Both the position numbers and the translations under genes were made by a program. The notes beneath the pieces were generated by a model that saw only the letters and a list, made by a program, of their open reading frames with translations, made no database searches and was not told where the DNA came from. Below are positions 56,886 to 60,374 of a stretch of DNA of 64,000 nt, one piece after another (positions within the stretch are counted from its first letter, which is position 1; the number at the start of each line of letters is the position of its first letter). The DNA is from an uncultured Bacteroidia bacterium (GTDB lineage Bacteria > Bacteroidota > Bacteroidia > Bacteroidales > UBA932): the NCBI GenBank assembly GCA_902762655.1, contig CACWOZ010000011.1:29659-93658 (forward strand). Reading direction: 5' to 3'.

Positions 56886-57554
56886 ATGAAAAAATCACTC
56901 TTTATTTGCGCTGTTTGTGCAGCCCTCGTTGCCACCGCCTGCTGCGGCGGCAAGCAGAAAGTAAGTGCAATCGTTGCCGGCCCCGATAAAGTCGCCGCCC
57001 TGGTTGTCGAGTATCCCCAGGCTCTGGATGCAGAGTCTGTATGCCCCGAGGCCTTTGTTGTCGAAGGCGAGGAGGTTGTCTGCGCCAAGTTGGTGGAGCC
57101 CACCAAGGTGCTGGTTGCCCTGAAGAAGTCCTGCTGCGGAAAGCATCAGGAGAAAGCCGAGTGCGGTGAGGCTAAGCCGGAGTGCGGCGAGAAGCACGAG
57201 TGCGGAGAGGCTGAGCCGGAGTGCGGCGAGAAGCACGAATGCGGCGAAAAGCCCTGCCCTGAAGAAGCAGAAGAGAAGGATTGCTGCAAGGAAAAGTGCG
57301 AGATTCCCGTTCCCGATGTAGCAGTCCAGCAGGTAGTCGACCTCAAGACCGCCGAAGGCAAGACCGTAAAGGCTTGGAAGAAGGCCGTCAAGGCCACCGA
57401 AGCTTGCCCCGCTCCCCATCACGGCAAGCACCACGGCAAGCCCGGCTGCGGCGAGAAGCCTGAATGCGGACAGCAGCACGAATGCGGCGCCCAGCCCTGC
57501 GACAAGCCTGCAGAAGAGCAGTGCGACAAGTGCAAAGAGGCTGCCGCCAAATAA
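56886..57554 (+). CDS. Cysteine-rich lipoprotein with CGE repeats
   Basis: 222 residues, not recognised. The lipoprotein signal ends VATAC (Cys19). Residues 30-80 look like a folded beta domain (VSAIVAGPDKVAALVVEYPQ). Residues 83-140 are Cys/Glu/Lys-rich with two copies of a 13-residue unit ECGEAxPECGEKH (92-104, 105-117) and a third partial copy. A mid segment (DVAVQQVVDLKTAEGKTVKAWKK) is followed by HHGKHHGK and a second CGE-type tail with a QCDKC end. There are 24 cysteines in all and nearly none near aromatic residues, which suggests metal (for example Cu, Zn or Cd) or redox binding at the envelope. Its stop is immediately followed by the first 119-bp repeat. Confidence 0.8.
   Translation: MKKSLFICAVCAALVATACCGGKQKVSAIVAGPDKVAALVVEYPQALDAESVCPEAFVVEGEEVVCAKLVEPTKVLVALKKSCCGKHQEKAECGEAKPECGEKHECGEAEPECGEKHECGEKPCPEEAEEKDCCKEKCEIPVPDVAVQQVVDLKTAEGKTVKAWKKAVKATEACPAPHHGKHHGKPGCGEKPECGQQHECGAQPCDKPAEEQCDKCKEAAAK
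57159..57236 (+). repeat. Two tandem 39-bp units in the cysteine-rich gene
   Basis: Encodes residues 92-104 and 105-117 (ECGEAKPECGEKH and ECGEAEPECGEKH), differing by one residue. Likely grown by slippage; length variation between strains would be expected. Confidence 0.75.
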
Positions 57555-57672
57555 GCGTGCCCAGCAACTGCCTGAGCAGCAGCACTTTAGCCAAAATGGC
57601 CTGGTTGATTTCAACCAGGCCATTTTGCTTATATCGCTGAGCCATAGCAACTTACATGGCACGCAACAAAAC
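57554..57672. repeat. 119-bp direct repeat, copy A
   Basis: Matches copy B (60395-60513) at 116 of 119 positions. It starts at the last base of the cysteine-rich gene's stop. It has GCGTGCC (57555-57561) and GGCACGC (57658-57664) as inverted ends and a central perfect 17-bp hairpin with a two-base loop (57592-57608, 57611-57627), which may also terminate transcription. Confidence 0.9.
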
Positions 57673-57702: not shown

Positions 57703-57749
57703 GTTCAACCTTAAAAATGTCGGGTTCATGGTGTGAATTGTCTGATTTA
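57703..57749 (+). promoter_or_regulatory. Three 21-bp-spaced LytTR-type boxes upstream of the kinase gene
   Basis: GTTCA at 57703-57707 and 57724-57728 and a weaker ATTTA at 57745-57749 start exactly 21 bp apart, the last two preceded by TGTCGG or TGTCTG. The same pattern precedes the outer-membrane protein gene. Two-helical-turn direct repeats are the known binding mode of LytTR regulators. The last box starts 39 bp before the -7 element. Confidence 0.75.
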
Positions 57750-57783
57750 CGGACTTCGGCTTTTCCATTAAAGACAAAATGAC

Positions 57784-57791
57784 TACTTTTG
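57784..57791 (+). promoter_or_regulatory. -7 element of the two-component operon
   Basis: TACTTTTG, 27 bases before ATG 57819 and 39 bases after the start of the last box. Confidence 0.65.
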
Positions 57792-57818
57792 CCGCATAAT
57801 TTATCAGGAACCCGGGTT

Positions 57819-58940
57819 ATGAGTTATTTCAGCATATTCGACACATCTTCAACTTCCGAACAGGACCGTAAAAGGCGTTACTTCTTCCTGCTTGTCAACG
57901 CCATCGTCCTGAGCTGGGTTGTCTGGTCCATCGTGAATTTCAGGAACTATGCGGCGTTGCCCCAGGATGAAGTCCTCAAGGAAATCCTGACGGATATGCT
58001 CGAAAACGTAATCGAGGCCGCGGTTCTTGTGACATTGTCCATTTTGTACTGCAAGATCATCTTCCGTATCTTCTGGGGGAATAAAAGGACATTGAACAAA
58101 CTGTTTTTCCAGGTCATCACCTTGGCAGTTTTCAATGTTTTGACCTCTTTGGCAATCGGATGGCTGTACAGCGTGATATATCCGGGTGACGAGGGTATCA
58201 TGCTCCGGATATTCATTTCCGATTTTACGGTCGTGTCCATCCTTTCAACGACCTATTTCGTATCCTTCCTGATCAGCCGGCACCGCGATGAAAAGGATGC
58301 CAGGCTGCTTGCCGAGAAGAAGGCAGCGGAAGAAAAACTGACGGCGGCACAGGCGAAGCTGGACAAACTCGCCCTGCAGACAAACAATCATTTCATATTC
58401 AATAGTTTCAGCACATTGGGAGGAATGATCAAGACTCAGCCGGACGATGCGGAGAAATTCCTCCAGGGGCTTTCTGCCATGTACCGGTATCTTGTCCGCA
58501 ACGCCGACAGGCACCTGATCCCTCTCAAGGACGAAATACGTTTTACGGATAATTACGCCACGCTCGTCCACTACCGTTACGACGGCGTCAGGATTGAGAT
58601 CGACGACTCTCTGCGGAAAACGGATGCGTTAGTGACGCCTGTCTCCATTCAGCAGCTTGTGGAGAATGCCGTGAAGCACAATCGGCACGGCGACGAAGAA
58701 CAACTCCTTGTGGAAGTGTTTCGAATCGAAGACTACATCGTGGTCAGGAACAATATCCTGGAGCTTTCCGGCAAAGATGCTGGGAGCACCGGATCCGGAC
58801 TCAAAAATCTCGCGGACAGGATCCGTTTGATTGCAGGAAAGGATATAATCGCAGATAACGACGGGACGACATTCACCGTGCGCATCCCGCTGATTTATGA
58901 AGAGGATCTGAAAGATGAAAGTATGGATTATCGAAGATGA
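57819..58940 (+). CDS. LytS-type sensor histidine kinase
   Basis: 373 residues from ATG 57819 (MSYFSIFDTS); an upstream TTG frame opening at 57789 overlaps the -7 element. Four transmembrane helices (about 21-39, 64-84, 95-121, 132-153) with little periplasmic loop, a short coiled coil (155-186), the His_kinase motif QTNNHFIFNSF (phosphoacceptor His191), and the ATPase N-box QQLVENAVKHN with a GSTGSGLKNLADRIRL G-box. Signal unknown; a membrane-embedded stimulus is likely. It overlaps the response regulator gene by 26 bases. Confidence 0.92.
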   Translation: MSYFSIFDTSSTSEQDRKRRYFFLLVNAIVLSWVVWSIVNFRNYAALPQDEVLKEILTDMLENVIEAAVLVTLSILYCKIIFRIFWGNKRTLNKLFFQVITLAVFNVLTSLAIGWLYSVIYPGDEGIMLRIFISDFTVVSILSTTYFVSFLISRHRDEKDARLLAEKKAAEEKLTAAQAKLDKLALQTNNHFIFNSFSTLGGMIKTQPDDAEKFLQGLSAMYRYLVRNADRHLIPLKDEIRFTDNYATLVHYRYDGVRIEIDDSLRKTDALVTPVSIQQLVENAVKHNRHGDEEQLLVEVFRIEDYIVVRNNILELSGKDAGSTGSGLKNLADRIRLIAGKDIIADNDGTTFTVRIPLIYEEDLKDESMDYRR

Positions 58941-59673
58941 AAGGGCGCTTTCCAAGGCGCTCTCGCAGCAGCTGAAACGGCTCCGGCCGGAAATCGAAAT
59001 CGCAGGAATATCGACAGGGGTAAAGAATACTCTTGCGGCTCTGCGGGGCCATGATGACTTGGACATCATTTTTGCCGATATCAAGATTGACGACGGGCTG
59101 TCGTTCTCCATTTTCGACAAATTGGAGACCGGAGCCATGGTGGTGTTCACAACGGCCTATGACGAATATGCGCTGAAGGCTTTCGACTACAACTGCGCCG
59201 ATTACCTGCTGAAGCCAATCAGCGACGAGGCTCTGGAAAAAGCGCTCATCCGTTGTGAAAAGCACCTTTCCCGAATGAGCGGGGCCCAGGTCCGGGAGAT
59301 GTCCGGAGAGATTGTCCGCCGCGAAGTCAAATTCAGGAAACGTCTCTTTCTTGATTATGGTCAGGGAACGTTGATATGCCCCGTATCCAAACTGGCCTAT
59401 GTCTTTACCGAGAGGGGTTATACCCGCGTTTTCATGGACGACGGGAGATTCGGATCGACGGACAACTCTCTCAGCGAGCTTACGGAAAGTCTTGATCCGA
59501 CTCAGTTTTTCCGTGTGAACCGCCAGGCCATAGTCAATATCGACTTTGTGGATGCAATCGAACATGGGCCGGGACGGGATTTCATCGCGAAACTGCGGGC
59601 TCCCTTCCAGAAAATCGGCCTCGAAATAACTGCCGAGAAGATGAAGCAGTTGAAGATTCTTCTGGATGAATAA
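58915..59673 (+). CDS. LytTR response regulator
   Basis: 252 residues. The receiver domain has the acidic pair IIEDE (Glu7, Asp8), phosphoacceptor Asp55 in FADIKID, the Thr in VVFTTAYDE and Lys100 in YLLKP. The LytTR DNA-binding domain is at about 140-250 (KLAYVFTERGYTRVFMDDGRFGSTDNSLSELTE, FFRVNRQAIVNIDFVDAIEH). Partner of the overlapping kinase. It is the obvious candidate to bind the 21-bp-phased GTTCA boxes before its own operon and before the outer-membrane protein gene. A hairpin terminator follows. Confidence 0.94.
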   Translation: MKVWIIEDERALSKALSQQLKRLRPEIEIAGISTGVKNTLAALRGHDDLDIIFADIKIDDGLSFSIFDKLETGAMVVFTTAYDEYALKAFDYNCADYLLKPISDEALEKALIRCEKHLSRMSGAQVREMSGEIVRREVKFRKRLFLDYGQGTLICPVSKLAYVFTERGYTRVFMDDGRFGSTDNSLSELTESLDPTQFFRVNRQAIVNIDFVDAIEHGPGRDFIAKLRAPFQKIGLEITAEKMKQLKILLDE

Positions 59674-59681
59674 AGGCACTA

Positions 59682-59706
59682 AAGCCCGGCCAAATCGGTC
59701 GGGCTT
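59682..59706 (+). terminator. Hairpin terminator after the response regulator gene
   Basis: AAGCCCGGCC (59682-59691) pairs with GGTCGGGCTT (59697-59706) with one mismatch and a five-base loop, nine bases after the stop. Confidence 0.65.
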
Positions 59707-59712
59707 CATTAT

Positions 59713-59759
59713 GTTCAACCCGTAATATGTCGGGTTCAAGGTTCCTATTGTCAGGTTCA
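59713..59759 (+). promoter_or_regulatory. Three 21-bp-spaced GTTCA boxes upstream of the outer-membrane protein gene
   Basis: Perfect GTTCA at 59713-59717, 59734-59738 and 59755-59759, each 21 bp apart, the last two preceded by TGTCGG and TGTCAG. The last box starts 39 bp before the -7 element, exactly as in the kinase operon. Confidence 0.8.
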
Positions 59760-59793
59760 CCATATTTGATTTTGCAAATCAAATTACACTATA

Positions 59794-59801
59794 TACTTTT
59801 G
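59794..59801 (+). promoter_or_regulatory. -7 element of the outer-membrane protein gene
   Basis: TACTTTTG, identical to the one before the kinase gene, 45 bases before ATG 59847. Confidence 0.65.
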
Positions 59802-59846: not shown

Positions 59847-60374
59847 ATGAAAACAAAGTACTTTACATTAACATTAGCACTTGCTGTTGTGAGTATTTGC
59901 TCCGTTTCCGCTTATGCACAAAACAATAACGGCAGGGCACCTGGATACCATGGCAACCTGGCCATTACCGACCACCTCGGAGTTTTCATAGGAGCCGAAA
60001 CTTCGCATGGATATATGTTCGACAGTCACAACTATCTTGGCTTGGGCATTGGAGGATTTGTGCTTCCCAATGATAGCCACCCTACTTATATGAATGCGTT
60101 CATTGATTATCACAACTATTTGAGAGATAAAAATACGCTGGTTCTAGGGGTAAAAGCAGGCTGGTCTCACGCCTTTAATTACCAAAAAGACAGCGGGATA
60201 CAATTTGAGAATGGTATTTTGTGCGAGCCGAATATCGGTTGGTTCTGGTGCTTCAACTCCGGCTATGGACTATATCTTGGTCTTGGGGCATCCCTCATCT
60301 TCCCCTTGGGTGAATCCAGAACGGAAAAAACAGTCCTGCCGATGCCTAAAATCACTTTTGGCTTCGAGTTTTAA
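59847..60374 (+). CDS. Small predicted outer-membrane beta-barrel protein
   Basis: 175 residues. A signal peptide (LTLALAVVSICSVSAYAQ) is followed by alternating hydrophobic, Gly- and aromatic-rich strands (HNYLGLGIGGFVLPN, NTLVLGVKAGWSHAFNY, NSGYGLYLGLGASLIFPLG) ending in FGFEF, a typical C-terminal barrel signature with a terminal Phe. I do not recognise a specific family; the first part (LAITDHLGVFIGAETSHGY) resembles small OmpW/outer-membrane-beta-barrel proteins. It is the likely target of the adjacent two-component system, given its box array. The gene is followed by repeat copy B. Confidence 0.75.
   Translation: MKTKYFTLTLALAVVSICSVSAYAQNNNGRAPGYHGNLAITDHLGVFIGAETSHGYMFDSHNYLGLGIGGFVLPNDSHPTYMNAFIDYHNYLRDKNTLVLGVKAGWSHAFNYQKDSGIQFENGILCEPNIGWFWCFNSGYGLYLGLGASLIFPLGESRTEKTVLPMPKITFGFEF

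Follow-up and report, generated by a model that had tools for sequence, protein, structure and literature searches.

Within the window, that is, the whole stretch of 64,000 nucleotides analyzed here, three short boxes in direct repeat precede each of two promoters, one upstream of a two-component operon and the other upstream of the gene for a small exported protein. Are these arrays operators of the adjacent LytTR response regulator, how many regulator units would each of them hold, and which genes would they control? The features concerned, all on the plus strand, are the following.

57703..57749, +, array 1: GTTCA at 57703, GTTCA at 57724 and ATTTA at 57745, with a 21-bp period
57784..57791, +, -7 element TACTTTTG for the operon of kinase and regulator, 39 bp after the third box of array 1
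57819..58940, +, sensor histidine kinase, 373 aa, with a His_kinase domain (PF06580, E 2.2e-17)
58915..59673, +, response regulator, 252 aa, with a receiver and a LytTR DNA-binding domain by Pfam; its gene overlaps the kinase gene
59682..59706, +, hairpin of 10 pairs 3' of the regulator gene, -18.7 kcal/mol, z -4.9
59713..59759, +, array 2: GTTCA at 59713, 59734 and 59755, with a 21-bp period
59771..59774, +, -33-like TTTG, 11 bp after box 3 of array 2 and 19 bp before the -7 element
59794..59801, +, -7 element TACTTTTG for the gene of the outer-membrane protein, 39 bp after the third box of array 2
59847..60374, +, small exported protein, 175 aa, with a signal peptide and a C-terminal F

The original prediction attributed a LytTR domain to the adjacent regulator. 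The results of the Pfam scan agreed with this, since both Response_reg (1.8e-9) and LytTR (1.8e-12) scored above the cutoff, and the partner kinase is encoded in the same operon. The name LytS given to this kinase holds only in the broad sense of a His_kinase protein: LytS-type sensors are defined by a 5TM-LYT sensor domain, and no Pfam match to this domain was obtained in the kinase at E<=0.01. The hairpin 3' of the regulator gene is likely its intrinsic terminator, and array 2 starts 6 bp past it. The 175-aa protein is probably an outer-membrane beta-barrel, judging from its signal peptide, its length and its C-terminal phenylalanine. It gave no match in Pfam or NCBIfam, and no relative of its family was found in the PDB by sequence. 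Upstream of the operon, positions 56886-57554 encode a 222-aa protein with Cys/His-rich repeats of the CGEKHECGE type, perhaps metal binding, and a very strong hairpin lies after its gene (57589-57630, -28.3 kcal/mol).

Direct reading of the window confirmed all coordinates predicted for the two arrays: in both, the boxes are spaced by 21 and 21 bp, and the last box lies 39 bp before a -7 element of the form TAnnTTTG. The array pattern was defined as three GTTCA boxes in 21-bp steps, the last one 39 bp before TAnnTTTG, with the reversed pattern as a control. Array 2 fits it without a mismatch. Array 1 fits it with 2 mismatches, and its box 3, ATTTA, is a poor box that agrees with GTTCA at only 3 of 5 letters. 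Box 2 is preceded by TGTCGG in both arrays, and box 3 is preceded by TGTCTG in array 1 and by TGTCAG in array 2. Arrays resembling array 1 are also found before the kinase in two other genomes, G199 and G200. At the promoter of the kinase-regulator operon, a clear -33 TTTG was not found. Between box 3 and the -7 element of the barrel gene lies a perfect inverted repeat, ATTTGATTT-TGC-AAATCAAAT (59764-59784), which overlaps the -33-like TTTG. Among the fetched loci, it occurs only in this genome and in a near-identical relative (L067), and it is a possible second operator.

The arrays were then sought in relatives. A search of genome contigs returned 13 related loci, 44-97% identical and titled Bacteroidales or Bacteroidia; by their record titles, several named relatives came from rumen or omasum samples. 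Of 398 genomes of the family, 63 had a match to the regulator at E<=1e-35. We took as close orthologues the 13 genomes with E<=1e-70, a cutoff set after the list had been seen (the next match was at 4.9e-61), and genomes with double handles were merged by identical coordinates (G203=G114, G204=G352, G205=G398, G206=G363, G201=G309 and G211=G307). If the prediction was right, arrays should not be absent from orthologous loci, and they were present in 12 of these 13 genomes, 8 of them clear and 4 with box 1 altered or boxes degraded. The regulators of the relatives sharing the layout are 47-70% identical. Eight genomes had an array at <=2 mismatches (G000, G309, G407, G102, G363, G352, G398 and G307). 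In both arrays of G114, box 1 (GTTCA and ATTCA) precedes box 2 by 18 bp rather than 21 bp. G316 has an array with 3 mismatches; downstream of its regulator lies another one, degraded and with a first step of 18 bp. In G225 and G359, the loci of which are near-identical, the array has 5 mismatches; box 1 is lost, and boxes 2 and 3 are kept. In G255, whose regulator is 52% identical, no array was found by the strict pattern genome-wide or within 5 kb around the regulator, where the contig ends 393 bp away. The next tier comprised five genomes with regulator E values of 4.9e-61 to 1e-50. G368 has an array with 2 mismatches plus one with 4 near the regulator, G165 has an array with 4 mismatches, and G285 has only a degraded array with 5. 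By a relaxed rule, no array was found in G258 and none in G144, where a two-box remnant could be read by eye. The 21/39-bp geometry also appeared with other spacer letters in L103, L105, L106, L133, L134, L140 and L141. These stretches hold other kinase or LytTR genes, and four of them belong to other families of the order; the geometry may be general for Bacteroidales LytTR promoters.

To describe the site itself, a consensus was made from 22 arrays, the near-identical ones having been dropped from 26. Matches with 3 mismatches judged to be chance or coding (G165:C82, G204:C2, G208, G144 and G000:C2) had been dropped by hand before the consensus and the target survey below. The consensus reads gTTCAacCc..AAAATGtCg.GTTCA.ggtc.AAAATGtc.gGTTCAC..A.TtT.ATTTt, then TAc.TTTGC at -7. 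Its ATTTt stands at the position expected for a -33 TTTG, about 20 bp before the -7 element, and this T-rich element is at about the same position as the TTTG of array 2. Because the search itself used the GTTCA/-7 pattern, the arrays are biased toward it, and the independent evidence is that of the spacer letters. Here the stretch AAAATGtCg, which lies outside the search pattern, is conserved before boxes 2 and 3. The information content per 10-bp stretch is about 11 bits before box 2 and before box 3 and about 2 bits before box 1. The consensus has three GTTCA cores, with extended sites at only two of them.

The original prediction counted three regulator units per promoter, which now appears doubtful. 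Because AAAATGtCg precedes boxes 2 and 3 and not box 1, we read boxes 2 and 3 as two putative extended sites, each some 15 bp long and at a distance of 21 bp, which is what one would expect for a LytTR pair, and box 1 looks like a GTTCA half-site. The shift or loss of box 1 in relatives in which boxes 2 and 3 keep their register with the -7 element fits two sites plus a half-site. The alternative is that three equal LytTR units bind and that box 1 is a full third site. Triplet LytTR operators have already been described for RcoM and CoxC, which likewise have three evenly spaced repeats for a LytTR domain, and CoxC requires all three (PMC11347149, available part). Those systems differ in their boxes (TTCNNGCA / TTNNNGCN), and their regulators are single-component, CO-responsive proteins of Proteobacteria (PMC11347149, same part). 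In favor of three units, the GTTCA of box 1 is itself conserved in the 22-array consensus and lies at 21 bp in most arrays. In addition, G201 (L071) has a fourth GTTCA 21 bp further upstream, and box 1 there has the full AAAATG stretch, which speaks for more units in that genome. However, the letters before box 1 are not conserved in the 22-array consensus, box 1 is at 18 bp in both arrays of G203/G114 and in the second array of G316, and it is lost in G225/G359. We therefore regard three equal units as possible but rather unlikely, and two extended sites plus a half-site as the preferred reading.

The position of the boxes bears on the direction of control. According to the available parts of the published descriptions, LytTR sites consist of two repeats of 9-11 nucleotides with 11-13 between them (PMC4847170), with a bias toward 10 bp upstream of the -35 element. 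The arrays have this repeat format and lie upstream of the -35/-33 position. Their 21-bp period and the 11 bp to the TTTG in array 2 match the published operators (PMC4847170 and PMC6193735, as far as available), in line with the LytTR-type direct repeats originally proposed. In YpdAB-type LytTR systems, too, a protein with a receiver and LytTR domain has a His_kinase partner and direct repeats spaced by two turns in front of the promoter; the present system differs in its box (AAAATGtCgGGTTCA), the extra upstream half-site, the Bacteroidota -33/-7 promoter and the exported-lipoprotein targets. Two LRS-like operons of Bacteroides have 11-bp repeats with an 11-bp gap, 11 bp before TGTA/TGTG-19 bp-TATCTTTG (PMC6193735, available part), which by our arithmetic gives the same 39 bp from the last repeat core to TATCTTTG. 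LRS, including these operons, share direct repeats before their own operon. In contrast to the arrays, the Bacteroides repeats are two in number with a 22-bp period, and LRS regulators are not response regulators and are paired with a membrane protein (PMC6193735, same part). Membership in the LRS class is ruled out for the present system by its receiver domain and kinase.

Activation is favored by the position of the boxes, upstream of the -33 element and not on top of it. If the regulator instead repressed these promoters, there would be a precedent in CoxC, which represses from three repeats overlapping the -35 element (PMC11347149, available part). However, the last box of array 2 ends 11 bp upstream of the -33-like TTTG, without overlap, and upstream-binding LytTR regulators mostly activate, as stated in the available parts of PMC11347149 and PMC6193735. 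Repression is therefore improbable.

Taken together, the locus reads as a well-supported LytTR regulon, predicted from sequence. With a rough probability of 0.85, each array serves the adjacent LytTR regulator as its operator, and this regulator would activate its own operon and the small outer-membrane protein. Upon a presumed signal, the kinase would phosphorylate the regulator, which would then bind, as a pair and on the same face of the DNA, to the extended sites AAAATGtCg-G/GTTCA at boxes 2 and 3, assisted by the upstream GTTCA half-site of box 1. From this position, about 11 bp before the -33 element, it would activate the promoter, which is of the Bacteroidota type. The targets in this genome would be the regulator's own operon and the small outer-membrane protein, and in relatives the same layout would serve exported lipoproteins and small barrels that vary from one relative to the next.

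The spacers of the arrays were compared within and between genomes. The identity of the spacers before boxes 2 and 3 averaged 0.83 within genomes (17 pairs) versus 0.71 between genomes, a likeness that 0 of 2000 label shuffles reached (26 arrays in 13 genomes) and that held without G102 and G199. In G201, TGTA is found at all four sites of two promoters on separate contigs. We take this likeness as evidence that a single regulator would read the arrays of a genome, with the confound that it may come partly from the copying of promoters. The boxes could also belong to another factor, such as one of the other LytTR proteins, with the adjacency being incidental, since four further LytTR domains are encoded in the genome. 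However, no array was found in the stretches of about 3.3 kb around these four or elsewhere in the genome at <=2 mismatches. Moreover, arrays occur together with orthologues of this regulator in 12 of 13 genomes and persist where the gene order differs (L003). Another factor is thus very improbable.

The genome-wide scan asked for in the original prediction yielded the same two arrays only. In the 2.18-Mb genome, the pattern occurred at <=2 mismatches in two places, both flanking this regulator, and the reversed control in 0; the random expectation is estimated at about 0.002 per genome. At 3 mismatches, one further place appeared (C2:193501), and a two-box variant with up to 3 mismatches added C6:4573 and C14:171; all three places are inside long open frames. 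The register was examined in 12 regulator loci totaling 80,342 bases, the window's own included (L015, L003-L010, L012, L017 and L018). Pairs of GTTCA numbered 18 at a distance of 21, 6 at 42 and <=2 at any other distance, and the distance from GTTCA to TAnnTTTG was 39 in 11 cases, 60 in 9 and 81 in 7, with <=1 elsewhere. None of the control permutations of GTTCA peaked at 21, and TTGAC gave 7 pairs at 52.

The control was not silent in wider searches: the forward pattern was found in 27 of 398 genomes of the family versus 8 of 398 for the reversed pattern and in 49 versus 23 of 393 genomes of the order, and much of both kinds of matches was repeat DNA. Order-wide matches were not counted toward this regulon. 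Two-box matches at 3 mismatches were also left uncounted; the reversed control there had 4 matches in 20 genomes. Several simpler searches were rejected. When the -7 element was left out of the pattern, three exact GTTCA in 21-bp steps occurred in 31 of 199 genomes, and most of the matches listed were tandem-repeat or coding, making this search useless by itself. A single-box scan with TGTCNGGTTCA at 2 mismatches was unspecific (891+847 matches versus 611+603 for the reversed control). A tandem-repeat filter was unusable for counts: the AAAATG common to their spacers caused true arrays to be flagged as well. The boxes were missed by a repeat-finding program. An origin by chance or as a simple tandem repeat, for which one could cite that triplets of GTTCA at 21 bp also turn up in repeats and coding sequence of other genomes and that the reversed pattern scores there too, can practically be dismissed given the distance peaks, the -7 register, the silent control in this genome and the spacer conservation, and in our view it is refuted by the conservation in orthologues.

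Next, the genes behind the arrays were surveyed (28 arrays in 14 genomes). Six arrays face a kinase gene, 1 runs into a contig end, and 21 precede other genes, one of which (G199) is a near-copy of the window's own barrel gene, leaving 20 distinct targets. A signal-peptide-like start was present in 20 of these 20, one of which (L010) was read from an internal start. A lipobox was found in 17 of 20 by a crude, loose rule that was widened to allow Q after the targets had been seen; the first rule gave 15 of 21. Among background frames behind TAnnTTTG elements without an array, 6 of 35 had a signal-peptide-like start and 3 of 35 had a lipobox by the widened rule. A Pfam scan of 10 targets identified one C10 peptidase with an inhibitor domain, and the rest had no match above the family cutoff.

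The original prediction spoke of a kinase-regulator-barrel set. The survey does not support the barrel as the defining partner, since other exported genes stand behind arrays and the barrel is one of many exported cargos: proteins related to the window's barrel make up 3 of the 21 nonkinase targets. Its family is found in 18 of 299 family genomes. Where no kinase or regulator hit lies beside the barrel homologue, an array was found in 0 of 14 loci (L153-L164, L166 and L167), the closest match having 9 or more mismatches within 300 bp upstream, or what the contig holds of it, and 6 or more anywhere in the stretch; these stretches were about 2 to 3.5 kb, and a regulator further off is possible. 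In L165 and L168, the barrel gene lies beside a kinase/regulator hit and has diverged arrays (4 mismatches) of the same geometry. In G225, the orthologous regulator is on a different contig from its array-less barrel homologue. In L003, one barrel gene with its own array lies upstream of the kinase on the opposite strand, and another, array-less one directly follows the regulator; L010 has a barrel homologue near the regulator without an array.

Self-regulation, also part of the original prediction, would apply here, where an array precedes the regulator's own operon, but it is not general. A kinase-directed array is present in 6 of the 19 genomes whose sequence upstream of the kinase could be read (G000, G199, G200, G206, G209 and G211), in G209 at 140 bp before the start, and an array upstream of the kinase was not found in 12 of 19. 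In G102, the kinase promoter has three diverged boxes, with the -7 element 50 instead of 39 bp after the last one. Three diverged boxes with this 50-bp distance from box 3 to the -7 element, longer than 39 bp by one helical turn, stand at the kinase promoter in L017 (L017:290-405). At another locus, the regulator tail, the terminator and the first boxes are duplicated (L012:4749-4790 and L012:6475-6516), the second copy lying before the C10 peptidase gene. This repeat likely reflects the copying of an array by duplication.

More tentatively, and with less than even odds, the array and its promoter may form a portable cassette placed before unrelated exported genes, through which one kinase/LytTR pair would govern the fast-changing surface lipoproteins or barrels of each species, with a two-site-plus-half-site operator coevolving with the regulator. 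In the open-access literature searched, no described regulon was found for a Bacteroidales LytTR two-component system. The arrays provide a concrete, testable putative operator for such a system, the targets of which can be predicted from the sequence by itself. The association with exported lipoproteins suggests surface remodeling as the response in these bacteria. If the cassette reading is true, one kinase-regulator pair would govern a species-specific, fast-changing set of surface proteins.
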